Shown here one piece after another: positions 571 through 56,138 of a DNA stretch of 64,000 nucleotides (its first letter is position 1; each line of letters begins with the position of its first letter). The stretch covers positions 627,462 to 691,461 of the forward strand of contig NC_023135.1 of the NCBI RefSeq assembly GCF_000511355.1, read 5' to 3'. Source of the stretch: Leisingera methylohalidivorans DSM 14336. Its GTDB lineage: Bacteria; Pseudomonadota; Alphaproteobacteria; Rhodobacterales; Rhodobacteraceae. The translations under genes were made by a program, and so were the position numbers. The notes below the pieces were generated by a model. The model made no database searches. It saw only the letters and a list, made by a program, of their open reading frames with translations, and was not told the origin of the DNA.

Positions 571-660
571 CTCCCGCGCCCGCAGGCGCACCGGCTCCGC
601 CGGAGCGCCTTCCGTGCGGCCTTGGGCCCGGCACCGCGCTTTGCGCGGTGCCGGGCCCAA
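571..660 (+). repeat. two-hairpin 3' element, copy A
   Basis: It starts 7 nt after the stop of the small membrane protein gene. In sense order there is a CTCCCG box (571-576), hairpin 2 (GGCGC at 585-589 with GCGCC at 605-609, inner CCGG/CCGG at 591-594 and 600-603), the TTGGGCCCGG linker (622-631), and hairpin 1. Here hairpin 1 extends through the linker into an 18-bp perfect stem (622-639 with 643-660) over a 3-nt loop. Past it, a mirror-image half element continues to about 696: CCGGGCCCAAC, a GGGGCTTTGCAAAGCCCC palindrome, then GGCGGGAG. It looks like two facing copies that share hairpin 1. Confidence 0.7.
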
Positions 661-897
661 CTGCGGCGGGGCTTTGCAAAGCCCCTGAAGCAGGCGGGAG
701 CGCACCAGCCTGCCGGTATGCTGCAGGCATGGCAAAAAAACACTTGAACGACTCAGGCACATGCCCGATACGGGCGCCCAAGACGCCAACGCACGCGCCT
801 CTGGCGAAAGGGGTTACGCCCCTACGGTTACGTAGCGACGGTAACGTCTCTGACAGAACTGAGCGGTCATATATGGCCGGGTCTTTTGGAGATGACC
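661..897 (+). other. gap and leader before the ornithine decarboxylase gene
   Basis: No gene is supported here. After the outer half of repeat copy A (to about 696), the stretch 811-845 has a small GGGG-TTAC-GCCCC hairpin, the heptamer GGTTACG twice (812-818 and 826-832), and the inverted pair GTTAC (827-831) and GTAAC (841-845). These may be a regulator site for the decarboxylase downstream. No convincing -35/-10 pair was picked out. Confidence 0.3.
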
Positions 898-2067
898 ATG
901 AACGCAAACGTGGCCGGGCTGACTGCCCGTAATTGCGAAACCGTATCCCGCACTCTGAGCTTCATTGCCGCCAACCGGTTTGAGCGGCCGACGCTGGTGG
1001 TGGACGCCGAAGCTGTTGCCGCCAAATACCAGGCGCTGGCCCGCGGGCTGGGCCGGGCCCGCATTCACTATGCGGTCAAGGCCAATCCGGCAGCGGCTAT
1101 TCTTGAGCGGCTGGTGCAGGAGGGATCCAATTTCGACGCTGCCAGCCGGACGGAGATCGAATTGTGCCTGGCGGCAGGGGCCGCGGCCAGCCGGATCACT
1201 TTTGGCAATACCATCAAACGCCCCTCGGACATTGCCTTTGCCCACAGCATCGGCATCACCCATTTCGCCGCCGATGCACGTGAGGAGCTGGACAAGCTGG
1301 CCGCGCATGCGCCGGGAGCCAGGATCTGTCTGCGGCTGATCGTCGAGGCCAGCGAAGCCGATTGGCCGCTCAGCCGTAAATTCGGCTGCACCCCGGAAAA
1401 AGCGCTGAAGCTGATGGATTATGCCGCCGCCCGCGGTTTGCTGGTCGAGGGGCTGTCTTTCCATGTCGGCTCGCAAACCCGCGAGCCGCAGATGTGGCAG
1501 AGCACGCTGCAGCAGGTGGCGCAGGTCTGGCGCCAGGCGCATGAGGCAGGCCATAAGCTGAACCTGCTGAACATTGGCGGCGGTTTCCCGGCCTCTTATG
1601 GCTCGGACATGATGCCGGCCGAAGATTACGCCCGCGCGGTGATGACGCAGGTCGGCGCGCATTTTGGCGATGTGGCGGAGATCATGGCCGAACCGGGCCG
1701 CGGCCTGGTGGCCGAGGCAGGCGCCATTGCCGCCGAGGTTCTGCTGGTTTCGCGCAAGCACGACGATGATCTGCACCGCTGGGCCTACCTCGATATCGGC
1801 ATGTTCTCGGGCCTGGCCGAAACCATGGGCGAGGCGATCCGCTACCGGATCACCACGGACCGCGACCATGAGACCACCGGCCCCTGCATTCTGGCGGGGC
1901 CCTCCTGCGACAGCGCGGATGTGCTGTACGAGCGCAAGCCCTACCAGCTGCCGCTGGGGCTGAAGGGCGGCGACCGCGTGGTGATCCATTCCTGCGGCGC
2001 TTATACCTCGACCTATGCGTCGGTCGGCTTCAACGGCTTCCCGCCGCTGGACGTGATTGTGATCTGA
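898..2067 (+). CDS. ornithine decarboxylase (group IV PLP enzyme)
   Basis: A PLP-dependent decarboxylase of the alanine-racemase-fold ODC/DAP decarboxylase family, probably converting ornithine to putrescine, the entry to polyamine synthesis in the cytoplasm. The 389-residue product shows YAVKAN with the PLP lysine K61, HVGSQ (189-193), the phosphate-binding loop GGGFP (227-231), EPGR (265-268) and the catalytic cysteine-aspartate pair C337-D338. Length and motifs match the eukaryote-like ODCs common in alphaproteobacteria. Start: GGAG at 888-891 is 6 nt before the ATG at 898; an ATG at 892 and a TTG at 886 are in frame but overlap that site. A lysine/ornithine dual specificity cannot be excluded. 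A DUF1989 gene follows 86 nt downstream. Confidence 0.88.
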   Translation: MNANVAGLTARNCETVSRTLSFIAANRFERPTLVVDAEAVAAKYQALARGLGRARIHYAVKANPAAAILERLVQEGSNFDAASRTEIELCLAAGAAASRITFGNTIKRPSDIAFAHSIGITHFAADAREELDKLAAHAPGARICLRLIVEASEADWPLSRKFGCTPEKALKLMDYAAARGLLVEGLSFHVGSQTREPQMWQSTLQQVAQVWRQAHEAGHKLNLLNIGGGFPASYGSDMMPAEDYARAVMTQVGAHFGDVAEIMAEPGRGLVAEAGAIAAEVLLVSRKHDDDLHRWAYLDIGMFSGLAETMGEAIRYRITTDRDHETTGPCILAGPSCDSADVLYERKPYQLPLGLKGGDRVVIHSCGAYTSTYASVGFNGFPPLDVIVI

Positions 2068-2153
2068 CAGCACAGTCCAGCCGCTGCTGCGGGGCTTGCA
2101 AGCCCGCGGCGATGCGGTCTTGATGGGGCAAACAAGACAGGAAGGTTTGCCCC

Positions 2154-3011
2154 ATGACCGACATTTTCGAAGCCCCCGCCGATGCGGAGGCCCGCCGCGC
2201 CGTCCGGCCAGTGGTCTGCTATCCCAACGAGACCCTGCCTGCGCCTGATCTGACGCTGTTTCAGCAGGCCCGGCTGGGCGCGGTGAAAACCGGCGAGGTG
2301 CTGGCGCAGCCCCGTGAAGCCGCCTGTTTCGAGGTGCCGGCCGGGCATTTCTTCCGGATCAGTTCAGTCGAGGGGCCGCAGGTCGGCGACCTCAACCTGT
2401 GGAACAGGAAAGACCTCAGCGAGCGGTTCTATTCCGGCAAGACCCGCGCCTTGCATGGCACCCACATCACCACGGGCGAGCGGATGTGGAGCAGTTTCCC
2501 GCATCTGCGCCCCATGGCGACGATTACCGCGGATACATTGGGCTGGTACGGGATCGACGATTTCGGCGGCTCGGTGCATGACGTGATCGGCACCCGCTGC
2601 GATCCCTACACCGGAAACCTGCTGGCCGGCAGCCAGTACCACCACTGCTGCCATTCAAACCTGACGCGCGCACTGGCGGAGCACCTGGGCATGTCCCGGG
2701 CGGAGGCGGAGCCGCATGTGCATGACGTGCTCAACGTCTTCATGTGCACTGGATTTACCCGTGACACCGGCCAGTATTTCATGAAGGCCAGTCCGGTGCG
2801 GCCCGGTGATTATCTGGAGTTCTTCGCCGAGATTGATATCCTGGGCGCTCTCAGTGCCTGTCCCGGCGGCGATTGCTCGGCTGAGCATTCCAGCGATACC
2901 GCCGCCTGCCATCCTCTGCTGATCGAGATTTTTGCGCCCGCTGCAGGCGCGCTGAAGGGCTGGCAAAGCCCGCAGCGCAATGGCTATGACGGCAGCCATG
3001 GCCAGCCGTGA
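2154..3011 (+). CDS. DUF1989 (urea carboxylase-associated) family protein
   Basis: A 285-residue DUF1989 protein. Some members of this family are now known as subunits of carboxyguanidine deiminase or act beside urea carboxylase, while others have no known role. The core block after residue 50 contains the family features, including the GDLNLWN segment, the HGTHITTGERMWSSFPHLRPM stretch, and a His/Cys-rich SQYHHCCHSN segment that may bind metal. The C-terminal half has the family CPGGDCS segment. No signal peptide is visible. It follows ornithine decarboxylase on the same strand, so a link with polyamine, guanidine or arginine-derived nitrogen is suggested by context only. No urea carboxylase or guanidine gene lies nearby. 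Confidence 0.75.
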   Translation: MTDIFEAPADAEARRAVRPVVCYPNETLPAPDLTLFQQARLGAVKTGEVLAQPREAACFEVPAGHFFRISSVEGPQVGDLNLWNRKDLSERFYSGKTRALHGTHITTGERMWSSFPHLRPMATITADTLGWYGIDDFGGSVHDVIGTRCDPYTGNLLAGSQYHHCCHSNLTRALAEHLGMSRAEAEPHVHDVLNVFMCTGFTRDTGQYFMKASPVRPGDYLEFFAEIDILGALSACPGGDCSAEHSSDTAACHPLLIEIFAPAAGALKGWQSPQRNGYDGSHGQP

Positions 3012-3195
3012 ACGTAAGAGAAAGGCATTAATTACAGCGTGGCCGCCAATTTTGGCGCGATATCTGAAAGGCCAGGGATACGAAGGAATGAATCGGCGCT
3101 AAACTGGCCCAGCCTTTAGGATGCATTGAATCAGTGCGGCCAGAAAATGAAATCAAAGCGCCTTATGACCGCATTGATCATACCTCAGGCTGGCA

Positions 3196-3232
3196 AGAAA
3201 AAAGGGCAGGGGAAACCGCTGCCCTTACTTTT
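3196..3232 (-). terminator. intrinsic terminator after deoD
   Basis: An 8-bp stem (AAGGGCAG at 3202-3209 with CTGCCCTT at 3219-3226) is followed on the minus strand by TTTTTTCTT, just past the deoD stop. On the plus strand it is followed by ACTTTTTA, so it may act in both directions. The rest of the 239-nt gap (3012-3250) holds nothing else recognisable. Confidence 0.8.
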
Positions 3233-3250
3233 TATAAAATTGGCACTGTG

Positions 3251-3955
3251 TCAGGAAAATGCGGCTTCCAGCGCAATTTCCACCATGTCTCCGAAGCTGC
3301 GCTCGCGCTGATCGGACGGCAAGGCTTCGCCGGTGCCCAAATGGTCGGAAACCGTCAGCACCGCCAGGGCCCGGCAGCCGTGCCGGGCTGCAAGCGTGTA
3401 AAGCTCTGCGGCTTCCATCTCCACGCCGAGAATGCCATGGCGCACCATCTGTTCATTCAGATCGGGCCGCTCGTCATAGAACACATCCGAAGAGTAGATG
3501 CCGCCGATATGTGTTGCAGCATTGCGTTTTGCTGCGGCTTGCGCCGCTGCCTGCAGCAGGCCCCAGTCGGCGCAGGGGGCAAAGTTCAGCTCCCGGAAGA
3601 TGCCGCTGGAGGGGCTGTTCAGAGTGCTGGCAGTCATCGCCAGGATCACGTCGCGGACCTTGACCCTGTCCTGCATGCCGCCGCAGGAGCCGATGCGGAT
3701 CAGCGTTTTGGCGCCGAAATCGCGGATCAGCTCATTGGCGTAGATCGACAGCGAAGGCATCCCCATGCCGCTGCCTTGAATTGTCACCGGATGCCCGTTC
3801 CAGCTGCCGGTGTAGCCCAGCATCCCGCGCACCTCGTTGACCAGTTTGGCGTCTTTCAAAAATGTCTCTGCGGCCCATTTCGCCCGGTAGGGGTCGCCAG
3901 GCATCAAAACGGTTTCCGCAATGTCGTCTTTTGCGGCACCAATATGAATGGTCAT
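3251..3955 (-). CDS. deoD: purine nucleoside phosphorylase, DeoD type
   Basis: Cytoplasmic purine salvage enzyme that splits purine ribo- and deoxyribonucleosides with phosphate to give the free base and (deoxy)ribose-1-phosphate. The 234-aa product is the usual DeoD (hexameric PNP) length. It shows the N-terminal TIHIGA...LMPGDPYRA phosphate-binding segment, [16 protein letters not shown], the GVEMEAAEL substrate loop and the TVSDH segment carrying the catalytic aspartate. A GGAG sits 9 nt upstream of the ATG. The hvrA gene lies just upstream on the same strand, 21 nt away, so the two may share a transcript; an intrinsic terminator follows. Confidence 0.93.
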
Positions 3956-3976
3956 CGCGTTGCTCCGCCGTCAGGA

Positions 3977-4294
3977 TCAGATTTCCAGGTCGGAAATATC
4001 CATGCCCGCCGTCAGCGCAGCATGCACCCAATGCGGTTTGCGGCCGCGGCCGGTCCAGGTTTCTTCGTGGTTGTGGGGATTGCGGTATTTCGGGGCCGCT
4101 TTGTTTTTCTTTGTGCCCTGGCGCGACGCATTGGCGATTTCTTCCAGGGAAAAGCCGTATTTTGCAGCTGCTTCTTCAGCCGCTTTCAAAGCTTCCTGGC
4201 GTTCGCGCACTTCCGCTGCGCGCAGCGCTTCTTCCACATCGCCTTGCAGCTGAAGAAGTTCTTTTCTGGTCATTGCCGAAAGATCGAGGGTCAT
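3977..4294 (-). CDS. H-NS-like nucleoid protein, HvrA type
   Basis: A small DNA-binding protein of the H-NS family as found in Rhodobacterales (HvrA/Spb type), probably a chromatin-level regulator. With the start at 4294 it has 105 residues: an N-terminal oligomerisation helix with a charged, coiled-coil-like stretch (about 10-50), a linker, and the C-terminal DNA-binding core with the hallmark WTGRGRKPHWV. I chose the ATG at 4294 because GGAG is placed correctly upstream and homologues begin M-x-(L/I)-DL-x-xM-(S/T)RKEL. An upstream in-frame ATG at 4318 falls inside a perfect inverted repeat and is unlikely. It sits between ecm and deoD on the same strand. Confidence 0.85.
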   Translation of the reverse strand: MTLDLSAMTRKELLQLQGDVEEALRAAEVRERQEALKAAEEAAAKYGFSLEEIANASRQGTKKNKAAPKYRNPHNHEETWTGRGRKPHWVHAALTAGMDISDLEI

Positions 4295-4310
4295 TCTGTA
4301 CTCCACATTA

Positions 4311-4341
4311 AATGACATACCGGAGGTTCCGGTATGTCATT
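4311..4341 (-). terminator. perfect 14-bp inverted repeat between ecm and hvrA
   Basis: AATGACATACCGGA at 4311-4324 pairs exactly with 4328-4341 over a 3-nt loop. On the minus strand it follows the ecm stop by about 70 nt and is followed by a short TTTAA, so it may be an intrinsic terminator. Its position 17-47 nt upstream of the hvrA start also fits an operator or leader hairpin. The sequence is unusually AT-balanced for this genome. Confidence 0.6.
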
Positions 4342-4411
4342 CTTTATGGCGCAAATGCCAGACGCGTTTCAGCATCTTTTTCCTAATTCGCGGAAAAATG
4401 CCGAAGAAAGG

Positions 4412-6379
4412 TCAATTCACTGCAATTTCCGGTGGCCTTGCCAAGTTCACAATGTCGCTCATAATTGAATTGAGCTCGAAGTCTTTGGGGGTGTAAACGC
4501 GCGCCACGCCCATGGATTTCAGCCTTTCCGCGTCGTCATCCGGGATGATCCCGCCGACGATCACCGGGATATGGCCAAGGCCGGCCTCCTGCATGCGGCC
4601 CATCATCTCCTCGACCAAGGGCAGGTGGCTGCCGGACAGGATCGACAGGCCGACCACATGGGCGTCGTCCTTTTGCGCCGCCTCCACCAGCTCTGCCGGG
4701 GTCATGCGGATGCCGTCATAGGTGATGTCCATGCCGCAGTCGCGGGCGCGGAAGGCGATCTGCTCGGCGCCATTGGAATGGCCGTCGAGGCCCGGCTTGC
4801 CGACCACGAATTTTATCCGGCGGCCCAGCACGTCGCTGACTGCATTAACCGCATCGCGCAGGTCGTCCAGCCCCTCGGTCTTGTTCGAGACGGAGGCCGA
4901 CACGCCGGTCGGGCCGCGGTAGGTGCCGTAAACCTTGCGCATCTCCTCGGCCCATTCGCCGGTGGTGACGCCGGCCTTGGCGGCGGCAATCGAGGGCTCC
5001 ATGATATTGGCGCCGCTTTGCGCCGCGGCGCGCAGGGCGGCGAGTGCCGTTTCCACCGCCGCATTGTCCCGCTCGCTGCGCCAGGCGTTCAGGCGGCTGA
5101 TCTGCTCCTGCTCCACCGCCGGGTCGACCACCATGATGCCGCCATCCTCGGTCTGCAGCGGCGACGGTTCGCCTTCGGTCCATTTGTTGACGCCGACCAC
5201 GACGGTTTCGTTCTTCTCGATCCGGTTCAGGCGCTCGGCATTGGAATCGACCAGACGGCCTTTCATGTATTCGATCGAGGCCACAGCGCCGCCCATCGAT
5301 TCCAGGTTGGCCAGCTCGGCCCGGGCACCGTCCTTCAGCTCTTCCACCTTGGCGTCCACTGCCGGGTTGCCGTCGAACAGGTCGCCGTATTCCAAGAGGT
5401 CGGTCTCATAGGCCAGGATCTGCTGCATCCGCATCGACCACTGCTGGTCCCAGGGGCGGGGCAGGCCAAGGGCCTCGTTCCAGGCGGGCAGCTGCACCGC
5501 ACGGGCGCGCGCCTTTTTCGACAGGGTCACCGCCAGCATTTCGATCAGGATGCGGTAGACGTTGTTTTCCGGCTGCTGCTCGGTCAGCCCCAGCGAGTTC
5601 ACCTGCACGCCATAGCGGAAGCGGCGGAACTTGGGGTCGCCCACGCCGTAGCGCTTCTCGCAGATCTCGTCCCACAGGTCGACAAAGGCACGCATCTTGC
5701 ACATCTCGGTGACAAAGCGGATGCCCGCATTCACAAAGAAGGAGATCCGCCCGACCATCGCCGGGAAGTCTTCTGGCGCGATGCGCGGCTTCAGCTCGTC
5801 CAGCACCGCCTGCGCGGTGGCCAGCGCAAAGGCCAGCTCCTGCTCCGGCGTGGCTCCAGCCTCCTGCAGGTGGTAGGAACACACGTTCATCGGGTTCCAC
5901 TTGGGCACGTTTGTATAGCAGTACTCGGCCACATCGGCGATCATCTTGAGGCTGGGTTTGGGCGGGCAGACATAGGTGCCGCGGCTGAGGTATTCCTTGA
6001 TCAGATCGTTCTGAACCGTGCCCTGCAGCTTCGAGATATCCGCGCCCTGTTCTTCGGCTACCGCGATATAGAGAGACAGCAGCCAGGGCGCCGTCGCATT
6101 GATGGTCATCGAGGTGTTCATCTGTTCCAGCGGGATCTCGTCGAACAGCGTCCGCATGTCGCCAAGATGGCCGATCGGCACACCAACCTTGCCCACTTCG
6201 CCGCGCGCCAGCACGTGGTCGCTGTCGTACCCGGTCTGGGTCGGCAGGTCGAAGGCGACCGACAGGCCGGTCTGCCCTTTGGCCAGATTGGAGCGGTACA
6301 GCGCATTGGACGCCGATGCCGTGGAATGGCCGGCATAGGTGCGGATCAGCCAGGGGCGGTCTTTTTGCATCTGCGGCAT
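4412..6379 (-). CDS. ecm: ethylmalonyl-CoA mutase
   Basis: Coenzyme B12-dependent mutase that converts (2R)-ethylmalonyl-CoA to (2S)-methylsuccinyl-CoA in the ethylmalonyl-CoA pathway for acetyl-CoA assimilation. The 655-aa product joins an N-terminal mutase TIM barrel (about 1-510, beginning RPWLIRTYAGHSTAS and containing the SVAFDLPTQTGYDSD substrate segment) to a C-terminal B12-binding domain with DGHSNG at 532-537, where H534 is the expected cobalt ligand, plus GLSILSGSH and GGIIP. This single-chain MeaA-like layout separates it from methylmalonyl-CoA mutase large subunits. It diverges from the PlsB-like gene, and ccrA, the other signature gene of the pathway, is 1.7 kb away. GAGG lies 6 nt before the ATG. 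Confidence 0.93.
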   Translation of the reverse strand: MPQMQKDRPWLIRTYAGHSTASASNALYRSNLAKGQTGLSVAFDLPTQTGYDSDHVLARGEVGKVGVPIGHLGDMRTLFDEIPLEQMNTSMTINATAPWLLSLYIAVAEEQGADISKLQGTVQNDLIKEYLSRGTYVCPPKPSLKMIADVAEYCYTNVPKWNPMNVCSYHLQEAGATPEQELAFALATAQAVLDELKPRIAPEDFPAMVGRISFFVNAGIRFVTEMCKMRAFVDLWDEICEKRYGVGDPKFRRFRYGVQVNSLGLTEQQPENNVYRILIEMLAVTLSKKARARAVQLPAWNEALGLPRPWDQQWSMRMQQILAYETDLLEYGDLFDGNPAVDAKVEELKDGARAELANLESMGGAVASIEYMKGRLVDSNAERLNRIEKNETVVVGVNKWTEGEPSPLQTEDGGIMVVDPAVEQEQISRLNAWRSERDNAAVETALAALRAAAQSGANIMEPSIAAAKAGVTTGEWAEEMRKVYGTYRGPTGVSASVSNKTEGLDDLRDAVNAVSDVLGRRIKFVVGKPGLDGHSNGAEQIAFRARDCGMDITYDGIRMTPAELVEAAQKDDAHVVGLSILSGSHLPLVEEMMGRMQEAGLGHIPVIVGGIIPDDDAERLKSMGVARVYTPKDFELNSIMSDIVNLARPPEIAVN

Positions 6380-6548
6380 GTCGGGCCTCGCGAGTCAGTG
6401 TGTCGGTAATTTTATTTCGTCATGCAGATGTAAACTGCAATTTTCAACCCATGTCAATTCGCTGCGTTGCGGCAATTCCGCTGCCAGGGCGCGGCGCCCT
6501 GGCGGCATGGCGCTTGTAAAGGGCGTGGGCCTGCGCAACTGTCTCTTT

Positions 6549-13526: not shown

Positions 13527-13598
13527 CTCCCGCCCGTCGCCGGCGCCTTAAGGATGCGCCGCTCCCGTTGGGCCTGGCGCTGCGCTGGCACGCAGCGC
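13527..13598 (+). repeat. two-hairpin 3' element, copy B
   Basis: It starts 3 nt after the SDR stop. The order is the CTCCCGCCCGTCG box (13527-13539), hairpin 2 (GGCGC 13542-13546 with GCGCC 13556-13560, CCTTAAGG inside), the linker CTCCCGTTGGGCCTGG (13562-13577), and hairpin 1 (GCGCTGCG 13577-13584 with CGCAGCGC 13591-13598). Compared with copies C and D, the hairpin 1 stem differs by paired changes (C-G to T-A). Confidence 0.75.
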
Positions 13599-13663
13599 GC
13601 CTCCGGCAGTATTTTCACCAAGCAGAAACGGGGGGGGCATCTTTCCCGAATGCTCCGGGGTGC
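13599..13663. repeat. GGAGTATT-type 3' motif, two facing copies
   Basis: On the plus strand, CGCCTCCGGCAGTATTTT followed by ACCAAGCAGAAACG (to 13630) directly follows repeat copy B. On the minus strand, 13663 down to 13638 reads GCACCCCGGAGCATTCGGG then AAAGATG, which lies past the stop of the TIGR02186 gene. Both match the motif family also found at 34971, 45601 and 61378. Confidence 0.5.
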
Positions 13664-14486: not shown

Positions 14487-15410
14487 TCAGTGGCCTCCCG
14501 CGGCGCCGAGCGAGTACAGCTCAGCCGGTTGCAGCAGCAGCTCAAGCCCCAGTTTGACGCAGACGATGATCACCATCAGCGCCAGCAGGATCCGCAGCTG
14601 TTCGGCCTTCAGGTAGACACCGATGCGGGTGCCGATCTGGGCGCCGATCACGCCGCCGACCAGCAGCAGCACTGCCAGAACGATGTCTACGGTATAGTTG
14701 GTGGTGGCATGCAGCATGGTGGTGAAGGCGGTGACCAGGATGATCTGGAACAGCGAGGTGCCGACAACCACTTTGGTCGGCATGCCGAGGATGTAAATCA
14801 TCGCCGGAACCATGATAAAACCGCCGCCGACCCCCATGATGGCGGCCAGAATGCCGACGCAGATGCCGACCAGGACCGGCGGGATCACCGAGATATAAAG
14901 GCCCGAGGTCCGGAACCGCATCTTGAACGGCAGCGCATGCACCCAGCTGCGCTGGCGCCGCGGCGCCGGGGCCGTGCCGCCTGCTTTCTTGGATTTGCGG
15001 ATGGCGTTCAGGCTTTCGATGAACATCAGCGCGCCAACCACGCCAAGGAAAATGACATAGCAGAGCTTGACCAGCAGATCGACCTGGCCAAGCGCCTTGA
15101 GGTAGTTGAACACCACCACCCCCAGCGCGGCCCCCATCAGGCCGCCGGCCTGCAGTACTAGTCCCATCTTGATGTCGACCGTGCGCCTTCGGAAATGCGC
15201 CAGCACGCCGGAAAAGGATGAGGCGACAATCTGGTTTGCTTCCGTGGCCACAGCCACGGCGGGCGGGATGCCGATGAAAAACAATAGCGGCGTCATCAGG
15301 AAGCCGCCGCCGACTCCGAACATGCCCGAGAGAACCCCGACCATTCCCCCGAGGCCCAGGAGAAGGAAGGCATTGACCGAGACCTCAGCTATGGGAAGGT
15401 ATATCTGCAT
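14487..15410 (-). CDS. TauE/SafE family sulfite exporter-like permease (1)
   Basis: An inner-membrane permease of the TauE/SafE (DUF81) family, 307 residues, with about eight hydrophobic helices in two repeats; the two FGVGGGF/MGVGGGF segments (about residues 31 and 180) mark the repeat halves. Family members export sulfite, sulfoacetate or related organosulfonates, but the substrate here is not shown. It lies between a close paralogue upstream and the TIGR02186 gene downstream, all on the minus strand. Confidence 0.85.
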   Translation of the reverse strand: MQIYLPIAEVSVNAFLLLGLGGMVGVLSGMFGVGGGFLMTPLLFFIGIPPAVAVATEANQIVASSFSGVLAHFRRRTVDIKMGLVLQAGGLMGAALGVVVFNYLKALGQVDLLVKLCYVIFLGVVGALMFIESLNAIRKSKKAGGTAPAPRRQRSWVHALPFKMRFRTSGLYISVIPPVLVGICVGILAAIMGVGGGFIMVPAMIYILGMPTKVVVGTSLFQIILVTAFTTMLHATTNYTVDIVLAVLLLVGGVIGAQIGTRIGVYLKAEQLRILLALMVIIVCVKLGLELLLQPAELYSLGAAGGH

Positions 15411-15540
15411 GGTCCTTGTTAAACCGCAGTTCGTTCAAAAATCAATGATCTATGCCGCTCTGCAGCGTGCAGGACTGACTTGACGCGGCAAACTGGACTT
15501 ATCATCACGGTGCAGCATGTGCCGCCGCCGTTTGCGCTGT

Positions 15541-16464
15541 TCAGCCGCCGCTCAGCTCTGTCAGCGAAAACAGGTCGGCGGGTTCCAGCAGCAGCTCGAA
15601 CGCGATCTTGACCGAGACAGACAGCACCAGCAGGGCAAGCAGCACCCGCAGCTGCTCTGCCTTCAGACGGGCGCCGATGCGGGTGCCGACCTGGGCCCCG
15701 GCGACTCCGCCCGCCAGCAGCAGCAGCGCCAGCATCACATCGACGGTGTAATTTGTGGTGGCATGCATGAGCGTGGTGAAACCGGCGACAAAGATGATCT
15801 GAAACAGCGATGTTCCGATCACCACCTTGGTCGGCATCCCCAGGATGTAGATCATCGCGGGCACCATGATGAAGCCGCCGCCAACCCCCATGATGGCCGA
15901 CAGCATGCCGACCCCGAAGCCGACCAGCACCGGCGGGATGGCCGAGATATAAAGACCGGACGCGCGGAACCGCATCTTGTAGGGCATGGTCTGCACCCAC
16001 GAGCGCTGGCGGCGCTTGTAGGCGGGCGCCGGGCCGGCCAGGCGTGCCTTGCGGATCGCGTTCACGCTTTCGACCAGCATCAGCCCGCCGATCACTCCCA
16101 GGAACAGCACGTAGCAAAGCTGCACGGCCAGATCGACCTGGCCAAGCTGCTTGAGGAAGTTGAAGATCACCATGCCGATCGCGGCGCCGATCAGCCCGCC
16201 GCCGAGCAGCACGTATCCCATCTTCAGATCAACGGTGCGCCGCCGCAGATGCGCCATGAGGCCGGAAACGGAAGAGGCGACCACCTGATTGGCGGAGGTG
16301 GCAACTGCCACCGAAGGCGGAATGCCGATCAGGAACAGCAGCGGCGTGATCAGGAAACCGCCGCCGACGCCGAACATGCCGGACAGCACCCCGACGGCGC
16401 CGCCGATGCCCAGCAGCACCAGAAAGTTGACCGAGACTTCGGCAATGGGAAGGAAGACATGCAT
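15541..16464 (-). CDS. TauE/SafE family sulfite exporter-like permease (2)
   Basis: The tandem paralogue of the previous gene, also 307 residues and alignable end to end without gaps of note; by eye roughly three quarters of residues agree, including VGVLSGMFGVGGGF, GIPP-VAVAT, the HFRRRTVD-type loop and MGVGGGFIMVPAMIYILGMPTKVV. A 130-bp gap separates the two copies. The equal lengths and shared order suggest a local duplication. Substrate unknown; sulfite or another small sulfonate is the family-based guess. Confidence 0.85.
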   Translation of the reverse strand: MHVFLPIAEVSVNFLVLLGIGGAVGVLSGMFGVGGGFLITPLLFLIGIPPSVAVATSANQVVASSVSGLMAHLRRRTVDLKMGYVLLGGGLIGAAIGMVIFNFLKQLGQVDLAVQLCYVLFLGVIGGLMLVESVNAIRKARLAGPAPAYKRRQRSWVQTMPYKMRFRASGLYISAIPPVLVGFGVGMLSAIMGVGGGFIMVPAMIYILGMPTKVVIGTSLFQIIFVAGFTTLMHATTNYTVDVMLALLLLAGGVAGAQVGTRIGARLKAEQLRVLLALLVLSVSVKIAFELLLEPADLFSLTELSGG

Positions 16465-25554: not shown

Positions 25555-25768
25555 TGCACTGCCCTCGCTTTACGAGGCGGAAACTAGGCAGAGTCGGCAC
25601 GGCCGTCCAGACATGCTTGTTTGACAGACCGATGGAATAGCTGCCTAGATGCTATTATCTTATATGTTTTCAGCGACTTAGTTGCCGTGAAGGGCAGGAA
25701 GTGACGCGGCGTCTTATAGGTCAGCATTGCTGCCCAATCAGCTTATGCGTGTTCTGGCGGCAGGGTCC

Positions 25769-25825
25769 GGCGCGCCCGGCCCAACCGGGCCCGTGCATCC
25801 TGATGCGCGCAGGCCCGGGCGGGAG
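25769..25825 (-). repeat. two-hairpin 3' element, copy E
   Basis: In the sense orientation of the PaaA/PaaC-like gene (minus strand) it starts 17 nt after the stop. The order is the CTCCCGCCC box (25825-25817), hairpin 2 (CGGGCC/GGCCCG at 25812-25817 and 25786-25791, with inner GCATC/GATGC), the linker GGTTGGGCCGGG, and a shortened hairpin 1 (GGCGCGCC at 25769-25776). The rest of the 288-nt gap upstream of ilvE holds an AT-rich promoter-like stretch near 25650-25680. Confidence 0.6.
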
Positions 25826-49259: not shown

Positions 49260-49303
49260 GCCGGGGCGGGCGCCCTTCCGGCCCGGCTGTGCCGGGCTGG
49301 ACG

Positions 49304-49347
49304 CGCAAACGCTGGCCGTATCACGCAAACGCTGGCCGTATCACGCA
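49304..49347 (+). repeat. 20-bp tandem repeat
   Basis: The unit CGCAAACGCTGGCCGTATCA occurs twice without mismatch (49304-49323, 49324-49343) and a third copy begins with CGCA. It lies between the fadJ-type gene and repeat copy C, in a region with no gene. Confidence 0.9.
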
Positions 49348-49350
49348 CAA

Positions 49351-49424
49351 GCGCCGCGCGGAACGCGCGGCGCCTGGCCCAACAAGAGCGGCGCATTCTT
49401 GCATGCGCCTGGCGATTGACGGGA
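49351..49424 (-). repeat. two-hairpin 3' element, copy C
   Basis: Read on the minus strand it starts 12 nt after the rpe stop: CTCCCGTCAATCG box (49424-49412), hairpin 2 (GGCGCAT/ATGCGCC, 49403-49409 and 49390-49396), linker CTCTTGTTGGGCCAG, and hairpin 1 (GCGCCGCGCG 49351-49360 with CGCGCGGCGC 49364-49373, loop GAA). Confidence 0.75.
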
Positions 49425-49436
49425 GTTCCCCGCGGT

Positions 49437-50126: not shown

Positions 50127-50258
50127 CTGGCAGCTTCCTTTTGCAGAGGGAAATGAGGAGTCGAAGGCCGTATAGACCGTCCCGGCCCCTGTGGACAGGG
50201 GCAGAATGCGCAGCAGGCCCGTTACCCTGTGCCGCACGCCCGCAGGCTGCGCGGGGCG

Positions 50259-50276
50259 GCGTTACAAAACTTTCAC
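50259..50276 (+). promoter_or_regulatory. Pho box candidate upstream of phnC
   Basis: GCGTTACAAAACTTTCAC agrees at 14 of 18 positions with the direct-repeat form CTGTCACAAAACTGTCAC of the alphaproteobacterial Pho box. It lies about 65 nt before the phnC start, so PhoB control of this phosphonate operon under phosphate starvation is likely. Confidence 0.55.
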
Positions 50277-50341
50277 GGCAGTGACACATCAAGTTTGACC
50301 GGGCGGGCTAGGCAGGCCCCGAACGAAGAGGGAGCGCCCCG

Positions 50342-51160
50342 GTGTTGCGCATTGACAAACTGACGAAACGGTTCAGCGGAAAGATTGCGGTGGATACCGC
50401 GACGCTGGACATCGACAAACCCTGCATGATCGGCATCATCGGCCGCTCCGGAGCAGGCAAATCCACCCTGCTCCGGATGCTGAACCGGCTGGAGGACGCC
50501 AGCGGCGGCCGTATCTTGTTTGAAGGCCGCGAAATCACCGGGCTGAAGGGCCGGGAAAAACGCGCCTGGCAGTCCGACTGCGCGATGATCTTCCAGCAGT
50601 TCAACCTGGTGCCGCGGATGGATGTGGTTTCCAACGTGCTGCACGGCACGCTGAACCGGCGGTCGGCGATGGCGACGATGTTCAACCTGTATCCGATGGC
50701 GGACATACACAAGGCAATCAGCATCCTTGAGCGCCTCGGCATTGCCGAACATGCCGCCAAACGGGCCGAGGCGCTGTCGGGCGGCCAGCAGCAGCGGGTG
50801 GCGATTGCCCGGGCGCTGATGCAGGACCCGAAGCTCATCCTGGCGGATGAGCCGATTGCCTCGCTTGACCCGATGAACGCCCAGACCGTGATGGAGGCGC
50901 TGCGCCGCATCCATGAGGAAGACGGCCGCACGGTGATTGCCAACCTGCACACCCTGGACACCGCGCGGCGCTATTGCGACCGGGTTGTCGGCATGCGCGA
51001 CGGGCGCATCGTCTTTGACGGGCTGCCCGAACAGCTGACCACCGGCGTTGCCCGCGAGATTTACGGCGCCGGGGAGGACTTCTCCGAGGCGGCCACCTCA
51101 ACCGAGATCGAAACGCTGGCAAAGACGGATGCGCGGCGCGCTGCCATTCCGGCCGAATAA
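50342..51160 (+). CDS. phnC: phosphonate ABC transporter ATP-binding protein
   Basis: ATPase subunit of the phosphonate/phosphite importer, 272 residues: Walker [10 protein letters not shown] (34-42), Q-loop [12 protein letters not shown], signature [15 protein letters not shown], Walker [14 protein letters not shown]. The [10 protein letters not shown] region (after the Q-loop) is typical of PhnC. The start is GTG at 50342 with GGAG 7 nt upstream. It heads a phnC-phnD-phnE1-phnE2 set, and no C-P lyase genes lie in the window. Confidence 0.92.
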
Positions 51161-51180
51161 CCCCTGACTTTTTTCATCTT

Positions 51181-51200
51181 CCCGGGGAATGCTCCCCGGG
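51181..51200 (+). promoter_or_regulatory. hairpin between phnC and phnD
   Basis: CCCGGGGA (51181-51188) pairs perfectly with TCCCCGGG (51193-51200) over a 4-nt loop, between phnC and the phnD ribosome binding site. It may stabilise the phnD message or adjust relative expression. On the minus strand it reads into GGAGCATTC and GGGAAGATG pieces like the GGAGTATT motif. Confidence 0.45.
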
Positions 51201-51225
51201 GACTGAGCAACCGGAGAGACATGAG

Positions 51226-52128
51226 ATGAAGAAACTGATCGCTGCCGTTCTGGCAACCACGGCGCTGACCGCCCCCGTTGCGGCAGAGGGCATCAAAGAG
51301 TTCCGCATCGGCATCGTAGGCGGCGAGAATGCTCAGGACCGTCTCAGCATGCAGGAATGCCTGCGTGAGCAAACTGAAGCGCTGCTGGGTGTCGAAACCA
51401 AGCTGTTCGCCCCGGCCGATTATAACGGTGTGATACAAGGCCTTTTGGGCGGGACCATCGACATGGCCTGGCTGGGCGCATCGGGTTATGCCAAGACCTA
51501 CCTGTCCGACCCGGATGCGGTTGAGCCGGTTCTGGTCAAGGTGAACACCGATGGCGGCTATGGCTACTACTCGGTCGGCTTTGCCCGCAAGGACAGCGGC
51601 ATCGGCTCGCTGGAAGAAATGAAGGGCAAGACCTTCGGCTTCGGTGATCCGAATTCCACCTCCGGCTACCTGATCCCCTCGATCGAGATTCCGGCCAAGA
51701 TCGGCGCCACCATGAAATCCGGTGACTACTTCGGCGAGGTCAAATTCACCGGCGGCCACGAACAGACCATCGTCGCGGTTGCCAATGGCGACGTCGATGG
51801 CGGCGTGACCTGGGCTGATGGTCTGGGCGAATGGGAAGACGGCTATCAGTCGGGCGCGCTGCGCCGTGCGGTTGACGCTGGTCTTGTCGACATGAACGAC
51901 ATGGTCGAGATCTGGAAATCGGCGCCGATCCCGGAAGGCCCGTTTGTACTGCGCAGCGGACTGCCGGCCGATGTGAAGGTCAAGGTGACCGGCCTGCTGG
52001 CCTCGATGAACTCAATCGACCCGGATTGCATGTACAATGTGCTGGGCGGCGACTCGAACGGGCTGATGCCGATCACCCATGATGCCTATGAGCTGATCAT
52101 CGAAGCCCGCAAATTGAAATCCCAGTAA
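51226..52128 (+). CDS. phnD: phosphonate ABC transporter substrate-binding protein
   Basis: Periplasmic phosphonate-binding protein, 300 residues, with a signal peptide (1-20, ending VAA). The body has FRIGIVGGENAQDRL, TKLFAPADYNGVIQGLLGG, MAWLGASGY and FGDPNSTSGYLIP, which are PhnD hallmarks. It delivers phosphonates to PhnE. GGAGAG precedes the ATG. Confidence 0.93.
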   Translation: MKKLIAAVLATTALTAPVAAEGIKEFRIGIVGGENAQDRLSMQECLREQTEALLGVETKLFAPADYNGVIQGLLGGTIDMAWLGASGYAKTYLSDPDAVEPVLVKVNTDGGYGYYSVGFARKDSGIGSLEEMKGKTFGFGDPNSTSGYLIPSIEIPAKIGATMKSGDYFGEVKFTGGHEQTIVAVANGDVDGGVTWADGLGEWEDGYQSGALRRAVDAGLVDMNDMVEIWKSAPIPEGPFVLRSGLPADVKVKVTGLLASMNSIDPDCMYNVLGGDSNGLMPITHDAYELIIEARKLKSQ

Positions 52129-52145
52129 TTTCTGTACTGTGCCTG

Positions 52146-52175
52146 GCGGGGTTTCGGGCTTGCCCCAAGCCCCGC
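52146..52175 (+). promoter_or_regulatory. hairpin between phnD and phnE1
   Basis: GCGGGG (52146-52151) pairs with CCCCGC (52170-52175); an inner GGGC/GCCC can extend it. It lies 18 nt after the phnD stop and has no T-run, so it is more likely an mRNA-stability or partial-termination element. Confidence 0.45.
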
Positions 52176-52228
52176 AATTTCCCTGATGGCCGCCGCACCG
52201 GCCATCACTTCAAGACCAGGACCCATAG

Positions 52229-53098
52229 ATGGCAGATCTGACAGCCGCCCGGCCGGGCATCGATGACATCCGGCAGCAATACACCGCCCATACCCAGCGC
52301 AAGCGGCTGTACGGCGGAATTCTTCTGGCCCTCTTTGTCGCGCTGATGGCTGCGGGTTTCCGCACCGCCGATGCGCGCAATGCGGGCTCTTTCGCAGATG
52401 GGTTCACCCGGATCTTCGATTACCCCGCCGAGGTGCTGGCAGAAGCTGCCGACAAGGCAGCCCAGCTGCCCGGCCATCTGGTGCATTTCTTTCCAGCATT
52501 GGTGGAAACGCTGAACATCGCCGCGGCCTCGACCCTTGCGGGCGCGGTGTTCGGAACCCTGCTGTCACTCCTGGCAACCCGCGGCATGGCGCCCTGGCCT
52601 GTGCTGATCCCGCTGTTCCGGCGCATCAGCGACATCTGCCGGGCGGTTCCGGAGATTGTCATTGCGCTGGTGTTGATTTTTGTTCTGGGCGGCGGCCCGG
52701 TGCCTGCGATGATCGCCATTGCCATCCACACCGCCGGCGCGTTGGGCAAGCTGTTTTCCGAGGTGAATGAAAATGCCTCGCTGAAACCTGTGGAAGGCCT
52801 GTCATCAGTCGGCGCCGGCTGGGTGCAGCGGATGACGCTGGGGGTGATCCCGCAGGTCGGACCGAACTATGTGAGCTATGCGCTGCTGCGGTTTGAGATC
52901 AATATCCGTGCTTCGGCCATCCTTGGTTTTGTCGGCGCGGGCGGCATCGGTTACGAGCTGAAGAACGCCATGTCCTGGGGGCAGGGGAGCTACGATGAGG
53001 CCGCCGCAATTTTCCTCCTTCTTTTTGCCGCCATTGTGGCCGTCGACCAGCTGTCCGGCCTGCTGCGCGACCGTCTGACCCATGGAGCAGCAGCATGA
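52229..53098 (+). CDS. phnE: phosphonate ABC transporter permease (PhnE, first)
   Basis: Inner-membrane permease of the PhnE family, 289 residues, about six helices, with the ABC permease EAA-like loop AGALGKLFSEVNENASLKPVEGLSSVGAGWVQ. It pairs with the following larger permease. The stop overlaps the next start by 4 nt (ATGA). Confidence 0.9.
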   Translation: MADLTAARPGIDDIRQQYTAHTQRKRLYGGILLALFVALMAAGFRTADARNAGSFADGFTRIFDYPAEVLAEAADKAAQLPGHLVHFFPALVETLNIAAASTLAGAVFGTLLSLLATRGMAPWPVLIPLFRRISDICRAVPEIVIALVLIFVLGGGPVPAMIAIAIHTAGALGKLFSEVNENASLKPVEGLSSVGAGWVQRMTLGVIPQVGPNYVSYALLRFEINIRASAILGFVGAGGIGYELKNAMSWGQGSYDEAAAIFLLLFAAIVAVDQLSGLLRDRLTHGAAA

Positions 53099-54411
53099 CC
53101 ACTTTCGATACCACTCTCACCCCGGCCGAGCTGAAGCTGGATATCTCAAGGCTGTTTTTGAAGAAGCGGTTGCTGGGTTTTGCACTGCCCGCCGCGGTGC
53201 TGGCCTATCTGACCTATGTTTTTCTGGCCTTTGACGTCCCCGGGCTGTGGGAGAAAGCGAACCTGGAGAACGCCAGAACCCTGGTCAGCGACAGTTACAG
53301 CTACAAGACGCATGTGACCCGCGACAACCGCAACGGCGCGGTTTCTGTTTCGATTGAAGGGGAACGCAAGGGCACCTACCCCGATGGCACAGCGCCGGAT
53401 TGGGTTGCCCTGGGTGAGACCACTGTGATTGACTTGGAGGATGGCCATACCGTCACCTTTGGCCCGGAAACCATCGAATATGCGATCCCCGGATACGGCA
53501 CCGTCCGCGCCACCCCGATCCGCGGCGCAGGCGTTCAGGCTGAATTGCCGGCGGGCGATGTGCCGGAGTGGATCAGCGTTTCCAAAAACCGGCTGGCGGT
53601 CGAAACCGGGGCCGGGCGCCTGACTGTCACCCGGAACCGGGCTGAAGTGTTCCGCTATTTCGCAGGATGGGAGCTGTTCTTTTTCACCCTCGACAGCCCC
53701 TATTCCGGCATGGCGGCAGGGGAGCTGCTGCAGCGCGCGGCCACAGGCGAGGCCGGGGCGATCTTTCAGGAGTTCTGGAGCAACAAGATGTGGCGCCACC
53801 AGGACGTGGCCTGGGCGATTGCCGAAACTCTGCTGATGGCGTTTCTGGGCACCATTGGCGCAGCTGTCATCGCGCTGCCGCTGGCCTTTGCCGCCACCCG
53901 CAATTTCATGCCCTTGCGTGCCTTGCGTTTTGCCATGCGCCGTCTGTTCGATTTTTTCCGCGGGGTGGACTCGCTGATCTGGACCGTGGTTCTGGCCCGC
54001 GCTTTTGGCCCCGGTCCGTTGACCGGTGCGCTGGCGATCCTGGTGACGGATACCGGCACGTTCGGCAAGATCTTCTCGGAAGCGCTGGAAAACATTGATC
54101 GTAAGCAGATCGAGGGCGTTGCCTCCACCGGTGCGAAACCGCTGCAGCGCTACCGGTTCGGAGTGCTCCCGCAGATCACCCCGGTGCTGCTGAGCCAGCT
54201 GCTGTATTTTCTGGAATCCAACACCCGCTCGGCCACCATCATCGGTGCAATCACCGGCGGCGGCATCGGCTTGCTGCTGACCCAGGCGATCATCACCCGA
54301 AAGGACTGGGAGGAGGTGGCATATTACATCACCCTGATCATTCTGATGGTGATGCTGATGGACTGGTTCTCGGGCTGGCTGCGGCGGAAGCTGATCACAG
54401 GCGGCAGGTGA
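53095..54411 (+). CDS. phnE: phosphonate ABC transporter permease with periplasmic insert (PhnE, second)
   Basis: A 438-residue permease. After an N-terminal helix (about 24-44) comes a periplasmic insert (about 55-195; LVSDSYSYKTHVTRDNRNGAV and following), then the PhnE core with GTFGKIFSEALENIDRKQIEGVASTGAKPLQRYRFGVLPQ. Paired short and long PhnE genes are common in Roseobacter phn operons. The end of the gene carries part of a 17-bp tandem duplication that includes the stop codon. Confidence 0.88.
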   Translation: MTTFDTTLTPAELKLDISRLFLKKRLLGFALPAAVLAYLTYVFLAFDVPGLWEKANLENARTLVSDSYSYKTHVTRDNRNGAVSVSIEGERKGTYPDGTAPDWVALGETTVIDLEDGHTVTFGPETIEYAIPGYGTVRATPIRGAGVQAELPAGDVPEWISVSKNRLAVETGAGRLTVTRNRAEVFRYFAGWELFFFTLDSPYSGMAAGELLQRAATGEAGAIFQEFWSNKMWRHQDVAWAIAETLLMAFLGTIGAAVIALPLAFAATRNFMPLRALRFAMRRLFDFFRGVDSLIWTVVLARAFGPGPLTGALAILVTDTGTFGKIFSEALENIDRKQIEGVASTGAKPLQRYRFGVLPQITPVLLSQLLYFLESNTRSATIIGAITGGGIGLLLTQAIITRKDWEEVAYYITLIILMVMLMDWFSGWLRRKLITGGR

Positions 54412-54424
54412 TCACAGGCGGCAG
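54392..54424 (+). repeat. 17-bp tandem duplication across the phnE stop
   Basis: TGATCACAGGCGGCAG occurs at 54392-54407 and 54409-54424 (period 17). The stop TGA (54409-54411) is the start of the second copy. Confidence 0.85.
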
Positions 54425-54820
54425 CGGGCCGGCCGAACGCAAGACGGCCAAGGCGCAGGAGGACGGAGCCCTGCCGCTCCCCTGATCCCGGACGTTTCAG
54501 AGAAAAGGCCATGGCCCGTTTGCAGGCAGCATTGCCGGTTTCCCGGGCGCTGACGGTGGCAGCGATCCTGGAATAATATGGCAGACCCGGCAGTCCGGCA
54601 GACAGCGGAAGGCTCCCGCCTGTTTCGGCGCATCCGCAGAATGCACGTTACAGTTGGGCGTGGCGCCGCTGCGCGGCGCAGGAAGGGCTGCTGAGGAAGC
54701 GCTTGATGGGCAATTCTGCCCTTCAAGCGCCTTGCCGGTTGTATAACCAGCCATCTCCGCCTCAAGGGTGAACGGCGCTGCGCGCCGCCGCTTTGCGGCC
54801 CTTGACCGGGGGGCGCAGGA
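54425..54820. other. intergenic region with a long hairpin, no gene seen
   Basis: I see no supported gene in this stretch. It contains a GC-rich start (GCGGGCCGGCCG), then a strong hairpin at 54699-54730: GCGCTTGA with TCAAGCGC, inner GGGCA with TGCCC, one T-T mismatch, loop ATTC. It lies between convergent phnE and mrp, and may end transcription of one or both. Short open frames inside it show no family likeness. Confidence 0.5.
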
Positions 54821-55894
54821 TTATGCAGCGCCTGCGTCCACCAGCTGCGTGGCGATATCCAGGAAAACCTTGGCCTGGGCGCTGTCGGGCTGTGCTGCCA
54901 CAATCGGCGTGCCGTTGTCCCCGGCCAGGCGCACATCCAGATGCAGCGGCACCTCTCCCAGCAGCGGGACATTCAGTTTCTTCGCCTCCTGCGCCACGCC
55001 GCCATGGCCGAAGACATGCTCCTCGTGGCCGCAGTTCGAGCAGATGTGGGTCGACATATTCTCGATCATGCCCAGCACTGGCACGTTCATCTTGCGGAAC
55101 ATGTCGATGCCTTTGCGGGCATCGATCAGGGCCACATCCTGGGGAGTGGAGACCACGATGGAGCCGTCCACATGGGTTTTCTGCGCCAGGGTCATCTGCA
55201 CATCGCCGGTGCCGGGCGGCAGGTCGACGATCAGCACGTCCAGCTCACCCCATTGCACCTGCAGCAGCATTTGCTGCAGCGCGCCCATCAGCATCGGGCC
55301 GCGCCAGATCACCGCCTGGTCCTCGCCGGTCATCAGACCCATCGACATCATCGTGACACCATGGTTGCGCAGGGGCAGGATGGTCTTGCCATCCGGGCTG
55401 GCCGGCCGCCCGCTCACCCCCAGCATTTTCGGCTGCGAGGGACCGTAAACGTCAGCATCCAGCAGCCCCACTTTGCGCCCCTGCATCGCCAGCGCGCAGG
55501 CAATATTGGCCGAGACGGTGGACTTTCCGACCCCGCCCTTGCCGGAGGCCACCGCGAGGATCCGCGCCACGCCCGGAACCTTCTGCGGTGCTGCCTGCTG
55601 TTGCGCCTGGGCGGGCTGCTTGGGCTTCAGATCCGGCGGCGCCTTCTGCGAATGAGCGGTCAGCATGGCCGAGACCTTTTCCACCCCCGGCAGCGCCGCC
55701 ACCGCAGCGTCAGCCCTGTCGCGGACCGGGCCATAGGCCTCGGATTTGCCGGGATCGATCTCCAGCACAAAACGGACGGTGCTGCCTTCGACTGTCACTG
55801 CGCGCGCGATGCCCGCGCTGACGATATCATTGCCGCTGACGGGGTCGGCGATGGATTTGAGCGCCTCAAGGACGGTTTCACGGGAGATGGTCAC
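54821..55894 (-). CDS. Mrp/ApbC-family Fe-S carrier ATPase
   Basis: P-loop ATPase of the Mrp/NBP35/Ind1 family, 357 residues, thought to bind and transfer Fe-S clusters. N-terminal DUF59-like domain (1-85), a Gln/Pro-rich linker (86-108), then the ATPase with SGKGGVGKST (117-126), LDADVYGPSQP, VDLPPGTGDV and the cluster-binding pair CSNCGHEEHVFG. The start is a GTG (55894) with CAGGAG upstream; no ATG is close. Divergent partners are separated by about 170 nt. Confidence 0.9.
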   Translation of the reverse strand: MTISRETVLEALKSIADPVSGNDIVSAGIARAVTVEGSTVRFVLEIDPGKSEAYGPVRDRADAAVAALPGVEKVSAMLTAHSQKAPPDLKPKQPAQAQQQAAPQKVPGVARILAVASGKGGVGKSTVSANIACALAMQGRKVGLLDADVYGPSQPKMLGVSGRPASPDGKTILPLRNHGVTMMSMGLMTGEDQAVIWRGPMLMGALQQMLLQVQWGELDVLIVDLPPGTGDVQMTLAQKTHVDGSIVVSTPQDVALIDARKGIDMFRKMNVPVLGMIENMSTHICSNCGHEEHVFGHGGVAQEAKKLNVPLLGEVPLHLDVRLAGDNGTPIVAAQPDSAQAKVFLDIATQLVDAGAA

Positions 55895-56066
55895 GCCGGT
55901 CTGGCTCCTGTAGCTGGTGATGTCTTGCGTCTGTTCTGGCGCAATTCACCACGGTATGCCAGCGGTTCGCGGCCCGGAGTTTGTTTCGGCGCATCCTGGA
56001 GTCAGCTTCTGTGCAGACTGGCCTTGTCCGGCTGCCGGTGCACCGGGGCGGCAGCAGAACGCAGCA

Positions 56067-56138
56067 GCGCCGCGCGTCAGCGCGGCGCCGGGCCCAACGG
56101 GAGGAGGGCACCCATGGGTGCCGGACGACGGGCGGGAG
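56067..56138 (-). repeat. two-hairpin 3' element, copy D
   Basis: On the minus strand it starts 7 nt after the gap stop: CTCCCGCCCGTCGTCC box (56138-56123), hairpin 2 (GGCACCCATGGGTGCC, 56107-56122, fully palindromic), linker CTCCTCCCGTTGGGCCCGG, and hairpin 1 (GCGCCGCGC 56067-56075 with GCGCGGCGC 56080-56088). The hairpin 2 stem is different in sequence from that of the other copies but equally perfect. Confidence 0.78.

Follow-up and report, generated by a model that had tools for sequence, protein, structure and literature searches.

A repeated two-hairpin element at gene ends in Leisingera and related bacteria, and the strand on which it may fold

Copies in the window and in the host genome

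The stretch of DNA analysed here, referred to as the window, comprises 64,000 nucleotides of Leisingera methylohalidivorans DSM 14336 (contig NC_023135.1, positions 627,462 to 691,461). Behind several unrelated genes, among them an SDR gene, rpe, gap and a PaaA_PaaC gene, it carries copies of an element about 75–80 nt long. The part of the element from CTCCCGCC to GTTGGGCC forms one hairpin, PA, and a second hairpin, PB, follows it. The strand that bears the CTCCCGCC box is termed S and its reverse complement R. The element is a real repeated family of structured extragenic elements, as the following counts show.

The genome contains 39 exact matches to the pattern CTCCCGCCN{26,36}GTTGGGCC and none to the same pattern reversed, and a search of the host genome for GTTGGGCCNGGC returned 48 places against 19 with the reversed pattern. 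A CTCC(C/T)G box lies 30–50 nt upstream of 43 out of 46 GTTGGGCCNGGC sites (window plus 40 loci); the three sites without this box are L035, L036 and L044. A covariance model, R1, was built from 31 copies and given only the two hairpins of the original prediction as structure. It matched the host genome 108 times at E up to 1 and 91 times at E<0.01; of these 91 matches, contig C1 carries 90 and the 285-kb contig C2 a single one. No full copy was present in a genome sample of 260 kb (20 stretches of 13 kb), which is below the expectation for an even spread, and the copies are therefore clustered.

The original prediction knew of no named family for the element. This holds against Rfam 15, which gave no gathering match in the window and, when 14 element loci were searched at E up to 1, a single unrelated hit outside the element. 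A plasmid collection searched with one copy gave no match, and no description of the element was found in the literature searched, supplementary files and most subscription papers aside.

Six full R1 matches lie in the window, with E from 2e-15 to 1.5e-7 (Table 1). The original prediction had named five copies, A to E, and all five sites do bear the boxes and hairpins, B, C, D and E at the expected short distances past stop codons; a sixth copy, F, had been overlooked. Copy F lies 201 nt past the previous called stop (54411), that of a BPD_transp_1 gene, in the spacer that separates this gene from a convergent one of ParA/NUBPL type. In copy E, PA is very strong and PB is short and weak.

Copy A had been placed on the plus strand. 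Boxes and hairpins are indeed found there, beginning 7 nt past the stop of a putative 65-aa open reading frame (ORF; 366–563), but it is the minus strand that carries the full match, PB alone being matched on the plus strand. We read the plus-strand copy as a divergent, opposed one that has its PB in common with the minus-strand copy. The box of the latter faces a gene of the Orn/Arg decarboxylase family that reads away from it, with its start about 197 nt off, which makes the minus-strand copy antisense to the genes beside it. The putative 65-aa ORF (+) directly before copy A has a hydrophobic start and a CxxC pair.

Table 1. Positions of the element copies in the window. The strand given is that of the CTCCCGCC box; in copy B, for instance, the better-folding strand is the opposite one.
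Feature	Position	Strand	R1 match	Context and parts
Copy A, full match	625..700	-	E 2e-15, seed member	
Copy A as first drawn	571..660	+	PB half only (622–651); no full match	
Shared PB at copy A	622..660	.		perfect 18-bp inverted repeat, TTGGGCCC...GGGCCCAA, arms 622–639/643–660
Copy B	13527..13604	+	E 4.2e-15, seed member	3 nt past SDR stop
Copy B, parts				box CTCCCGCC at 13527; PA up to GTTGGGCC (13567–13574); PB ~13577–13598
Copy E	25749..25825	-	E 1.5e-7, non-seed	17 nt past PaaA_PaaC gene stop (Pfam)
Copy C	49345..49425	-	E 2.2e-14, seed member	11 nt past rpe stop; PB ~49351–49373
Copy F	54613..54685	+	E 2.8e-9, non-seed	PB 54663–54679
Copy D	56061..56138	-	E 1.9e-14, seed member	7 nt past gap stop; PB ~56067–56088

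Fold, covariation and strand

For analysis of the fold, 250 copies were gathered by sequence alone (box, 22–42 nt, GTTGGGC). Later counts use 244 of them, three records titled Nocardioides and one each titled Streptomyces, Saccharothrix and Bacteroidetes metagenome-assembled genome (MAG) having been removed. In the 250 copies the enrichment of pairing forms a single antidiagonal, from positions 9/−1 to 22/−14, along which pair types are exchanged, for example at 10/−2 (GC 196, CG 26, AT 7, TA 2) and at 13/−5 (GC 101, CG 29, TA 25, AT 18). The whole stretch between the boxes is therefore one long hairpin, PA. Its base consists of the nearly invariant boxes pairing with each other (CCCG-C-C with G-U-UGGG), and its tip is the stem previously drawn as hairpin 2, which is present as described but not as a separate structure. 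PB, a GC-rich hairpin, is found in 250 of 250 copies with a mean z of −2.4 (60 sampled). A purine-rich, T-poor stretch lies 3–8 nt ahead of the CTCCC box in the 250 pattern copies, for which no pairing partner was identified.

Covariation was tested on a MAFFT alignment of 140 copies against shuffled and slid controls. Paired cells in PA and PB amount to 75.5%, against 63.4 in the shuffled and 36–40 in the slid controls; cells changed on both sides number 538 against 229 shuffled and at most 280 slid, and the covariation score is 0.285 against 0.112 shuffled and 0.068–0.093 slid. The slid controls are at a disadvantage here because the tested structure was written from two alignment rows, and the count of pairs changed on both sides (21) is not above the shuffles (20.3). 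Covariation is strong and far above both sets of controls, as the original prediction of a structured element had claimed from five copies.

That prediction had also taken the sense strand as the structured RNA. The types of mismatch do not agree with this. Among isolated mismatches with Watson-Crick flanks, PA on S contains 72 A.C and 17 G.U (p 3e-9), and PB on S contains 19 and 6 (p 0.015). As A.C on S is G.T (G.U in RNA) on R, the excess of A.C on S is an excess of G.U on R. In a positive control, 99 canonical U-tract hairpins from the same DNA showed the expected preference on their own sense strand (G.U 24, A.C 8, p 0.007). Within-column permutation gave 67 isolated A.C observed against 26 expected (about 2.5-fold), with G.U unenriched (17 against 24). 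Over all stem positions both types fall below expectation (A.C 0.67, G.U 0.57). The mismatches U.C and C.U on S, which read G.A and A.G on R, are at or above expectation (1.00 and 1.18), and G.A and A.G on S are at 0.3–0.4. A tandem of U.C and C.U on S, equivalent to tandem G.A on R, occurs in 88 of 244 copies where 45.4 are expected; a second tandem three pairs further in occurs in 45 copies (16.2 expected), and 36 copies have both.

Folding energies point the same way. The mean energy of PA with its boxes is −19.4 kcal/mol on S and −23.4 kcal/mol on R, the latter being lower in 224 copies and the former in 19. Because R is richer in G, z-scores against dinucleotide shuffles were used, and these too favour R (−2.90 against −1.83 for S), which was more negative in 104 of 120 copies. 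The energy preference for R is seen in the host genus taken alone (64 to 7 among Leisingera host copies) and in six of the six copies in the window. This strand signature is alike in all four gene contexts defined below. Together these features suggest that R, and not the strand originally proposed, carries the fold; an RNA of the sense strand as the structured molecule is disfavoured by mismatch types, energy, shuffle z-score and tandem G.A. Read on R, the element would consist of the palindromic hairpin PB, the linker CCNGGCCCAAC, PA with its G.A and G.U pairs, and the end GGCGGGAG. A G-quadruplex on R was also considered and dropped, many copies being without G tracts (by eye).

Placement, stability and spread

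Genes were called with our own simple codon-usage caller, which makes errors (e.g. at 3251–3955 of the window) that carry into the context counts. None of 97 full-length host copies and one of 154 copies in other species lies inside a called gene. The gene on the box side is in sense in 77 of 97 host copies and 120 of 153 others, and the box starts a median of 26 nt (host) or 22 nt (other species) after its stop. The gene on the PB side is convergent in 72 of 94 and 110 of 151 copies, respectively; the corresponding background, taken over gene ends of any kind, is 73 of 241 and 294 of 753. Enrichment past stop codons across genomes, one of the two tests that the original prediction had set itself, is hence present in many species; the other, covariation beyond chance in a larger alignment, was passed as well.

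Flanking genes of 220 copies from several species place 127 copies in convergent, 44 in co-directional sense, 40 in co-directional antisense and 9 in divergent contexts. The convergent copies are uninformative on orientation, as either orientation is sense to one gene; the co-directional ones contradict the claim that the element always lies in sense orientation. The box is within 60 nt of a stop in 128 of 171 copies with a box-side gene reading in, and in 36 of the 44 co-directional sense copies, while PB is this close in 46 of 167. Neighbouring full copies within 300 nt form 15 pairs, all 15 arranged tail to tail; 7 of these overlap, so that a shared palindrome aids both matches, and 8 do not. 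Upstream of copies without a sense gene, no tRNA was found in 20 loci; small ORFs there are mostly poor, and a few such copies follow a long ORF missed by the caller. With regard to replication strand, copies pointing along positive GC skew outnumber the others by about 51 to 30 (by reading of bins, leaving aside the 1.5–2.0 Mb bin), a lean not stronger than the usual gene bias.

Within the genus the element is retained at its positions. It follows rpe in 18 of 20 Leisingera loci and the SDR gene in 22 of 23, where the one locus lacking it holds a paralogue of 58% identity. Among 17 element-bearing genomes of other genera, a recognisable copy follows rpe in four (G109, G067, G380, G338) and a U-tract hairpin takes its place in two (G266, G308; all by eye); the remaining rpe loci have neither in obvious form. 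The element-free genomes gave one clear U-tract hairpin after rpe (G112), and some copies of the element at rpe are followed by a short T-run after PB. Occupied positions therefore last within the genus and change from genus to genus.

A different picture is seen in a relative, putative Seohaeicola saemankumensis DP4N-5 (G041; L340–L359), with near-identical 85-nt copies whose left boundary is at or close to CTCCC. Near-identity of this kind suggests recent multiplication as a repeat. These copies continue into a second conserved stretch, TTTCATCTCTT..AAATACTCC..GGGGGC..GCCCCC; the AAATACTCC module is near only 2 of 97 host copies and was therefore treated as separate. At 61395 (+) and 13614 (−) the window also contains another extragenic motif, AAATACT(C/G)C with a G-rich/C-rich hairpin behind it. 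This motif comes after the element in the G041 copies, and its core has 9 hits in 260 kb of the host genome.

All 21 Leisingera genomes searched carry the element, with 55 to at least 114 matches per genome; match counts from the genome scans are lower bounds, since scoring stopped at 114 candidates per genome in the scan of the genus, at 31 in that of one genome per genus and at 16 in that of the order. R1 found it in one of four other genomes of the family and in none of 16 others of the class, and, with one genome taken per genus of the family, in at least 27 of 149. A broader model, R2, built from 140 copies, found it in at least 55 of 292 genomes of the order, representing 21 of 112 genera, and every match was inside one family. 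In a class-wide sample of 190 genomes R2 matched the host genome and none of the 189 others. A pattern scan of named genomes gave at least 118 stretches. Among the matches listed, 112 have titles that read as Rhodobacterales or Rhodobacteraceae, and the other six are odd: Nocardioides marinus DP1N28-1 (three times), a Bacteroidetes MAG, Streptomyces and Saccharothrix. The three Nocardioides marinus contigs that bear the element (L129, L168, L172) possibly come from a mislabelled or mixed assembly.

Apart from the element, the window contains at 14487–16464 two adjoining minus-strand ORFs of 307 aa each, whose DNA repeats are 76–77% identical, a local gene duplication.

A proposed role at transcript ends, alternatives and known systems

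We favour, with little better than even confidence, a role of the element family in forming or protecting the ends of transcripts and in insulating adjacent transcription units, most of them convergent, from each other. Selection would have acted on RNA rather than on single-stranded DNA, and transcripts would end at the element. PB would act in either direction and PA would fold best in RNA arriving from the PB side; such RNA would end just before entering, in antisense, the gene whose stop adjoins the box. Stalling could be intrinsic, at the two hairpins and without a U-tract, or else Rho could terminate downstream with exonucleases then trimming back to the hairpin. For terminators formed by hairpin clusters, U-tracts have been argued to be unnecessary (PMC8355165, in the parts of that source available to us).

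The lack of a T-run behind the element, claimed from the window copies, holds throughout: T makes up 10–23% at each of the first 10 positions after PB, and the 8 nt following PB contain at least 5 T in only 8 of 242 copies. In convergent spacers, a canonical U-tract hairpin stands ahead of PB for 10 of the 85 genes that face it, while convergent ends lacking the element have one in 15 of 51 cases (p 0.013, unadjusted, from a pair of tests); for the gene facing the box the number is 16 of 85 (p 0.21). This depletion on the PB side, combined with the strand signature, is why we lean to a structure serving RNA from the PB side.

Several results weigh against this interpretation, the unadjusted p value just given being one. 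Canonical U-tract hairpins show no depletion at box-side ends that carry the element (15 of 60); where it is missing they occur at 15 of 73 convergent, 22 of 74 distant co-directional and 11 of 94 close co-directional ends, and in 11 of 241 shuffles. The co-directional orientations are balanced, so that neither strand's RNA alone explains the placement, and a closer locking to the box-side stop than to the PB-side stop is unexpected for a plain terminator of the PB-side gene. The energy of PB alone shows no preference for R, S being slightly lower. The excess of A.C over G.U mismatches is weak when only Leisingera is considered (13 to 7); this signal comes mainly from other genera, where the ratio is 59 to 10.

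In a more specific form, which we regard as possible though rather doubtful, the element would be a lineage-specific guard at gene 3' ends that halts convergent or antisense transcription before it reaches coding sequence, probably read by a dedicated factor via the invariant CCCAAC/GGCGGG base. Such a U-tract-free guard hairpin would be strong in RNA from the far side, owing to tandem G.A and G.U, and weak in the gene's own mRNA.

The strongest rival, given the balanced co-directional orientations, is a role at the DNA level: either single-stranded DNA is selected, or the element is a dispersed gene-end repeat of the REP kind that is bound or copied as a folded strand, its effects on transcription being secondary. 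The strand signature is alike even where no called gene transcribes that strand, the copies shun genes and sit at 3' ends, and the near-identical G041 copies keep this possibility alive. It is nevertheless unlikely in our judgement, as copies differ in sequence yet keep their positions throughout the genus, and a double-stranded cruciform would give no strand bias. REP/RAYT transposases belong to Y1_Tnp, and a search of 13 element-bearing Leisingera genomes gave no Y1_Tnp match in 8, where a weak or divergent enzyme could be present; with no consistent Y1-type transposase, membership in REP/RAYT is unsupported, though the element is a dispersed extragenic palindrome in many copies. Still less probable is a 3' untranslated structure of the sense strand, PA preceding PB, with which the box-side gene would end its mRNA or make it more stable. 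The closeness of the box to the sense stop, also in co-directional sense copies, the strength of PB on S (mean −21.2 kcal/mol) and the T-run of some rpe copies would fit; mismatch types and folding energy, which favour R, and the general absence of a T-run speak against it.

The boxes could alternatively serve a regulatory RNA platform as anti-Shine-Dalgarno or protein-binding sites through their pyrimidines (CUCCC, sometimes CUCCUCCC), in the manner of the CcsR/cuckoo small RNAs (sRNAs), which likewise have two hairpins. Near-invariance of the boxes would be accounted for, and Rhodobacterales do have CcsR sRNAs, along with a small protein associated with them, as far as the available text of PMC10253847 goes. 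Against such a platform, the two boxes are for the most part paired to form the foot of PA, CTCCTCCC is present in only 22 of 250 copies (2 of 72 in the host), and placement follows gene ends and not one gene class; we hold it to be improbable. An origin as orphan attC-like recombination sites of integrons is very improbable. An attC site has a GTTRRRY core at one end and RYYYAAC opposite, folds on its bottom strand and follows a gene. The element has GTTGGGC at its far end, which fits GTTRRRY (the copies having been selected by GTTGGGC), its bottom strand would fold and it lies past stop codons; the near box is CTCCCGCC and not RYYYAAC, the helix is symmetric and copies are isolated, without arrays. 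Integron integrases above the TIGR02249 cut-off were found in none of 21 genomes, where sub-threshold tyrosine recombinases are present. Membership among attC sites is thus unsupported by either RYYYAAC or an integrase above the cut-off.

If transcript ends are indeed formed here, the element provides a sequence-conserved, U-tract-free means of ending or fencing off transcripts, with dozens to about 100 copies per Leisingera genome and a presence in several other genera. It would then be a defined substrate for studying the end of transcription in GC-rich alphaproteobacteria, and the strand signature of its mismatches a marker for the selected strand of a palindromic element. Should its role lie in DNA instead, it would be a new repeat family held in place at gene ends for a long time.

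Among known systems, REP elements are imperfect palindromes at gene ends that number about 100 extragenic copies per genome and form opposed pairs, and in all this the element resembles them. It differs in its sequence, in its positional stability over the genus and in the lack of a consistent RAYT-type gene. Likeness to attC lies in the position past a stop codon, the GTTRRRY-like end and the bottom-strand fold, whereas the missing RYYYAAC box, integrase above cut-off and arrays, and the extra hairpin PB, set the two apart. With a canonical intrinsic terminator the element has the GC-rich hairpin in common, but not the U-tract directly after it. CcsR/cuckoo sRNAs (PMC10253847, from its available portion) are also alphaproteobacterial and have a pyrimidine-rich motif; the element differs by the rarity of CTCCTCCC, the absence of a U-tract and its ~100 loci. 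Hairpin motifs tied in Rhodobacterales to cco operons or cysS are distinct from it, to judge from the accessible parts of PMC8632094; one of them, HRC-8-4, is likewise confined to Rhodobacterales but is linked to cco operons and has a U-run at its end, while the element follows unrelated genes without one. Closer are the bidirectional intrinsic terminators between convergent genes, for which compensatory evolution has been described (PMC5381666, within the excerpts at hand). These share with the element the compensatory changes, the location past stop codons and the palindromic hairpin common to opposed pairs; the element is distinguished by the lack of a U-tract, by two nearly invariant boxes, by a long second hairpin with a strand signature and by being a dispersed family. 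Hairpin-cluster terminators, as presented in the available sections of PMC8355165, also have two adjacent hairpins near stop codons and no U-run. They are a structural class without shared sequence, in contrast to the element, which is one homologous family with conserved boxes.

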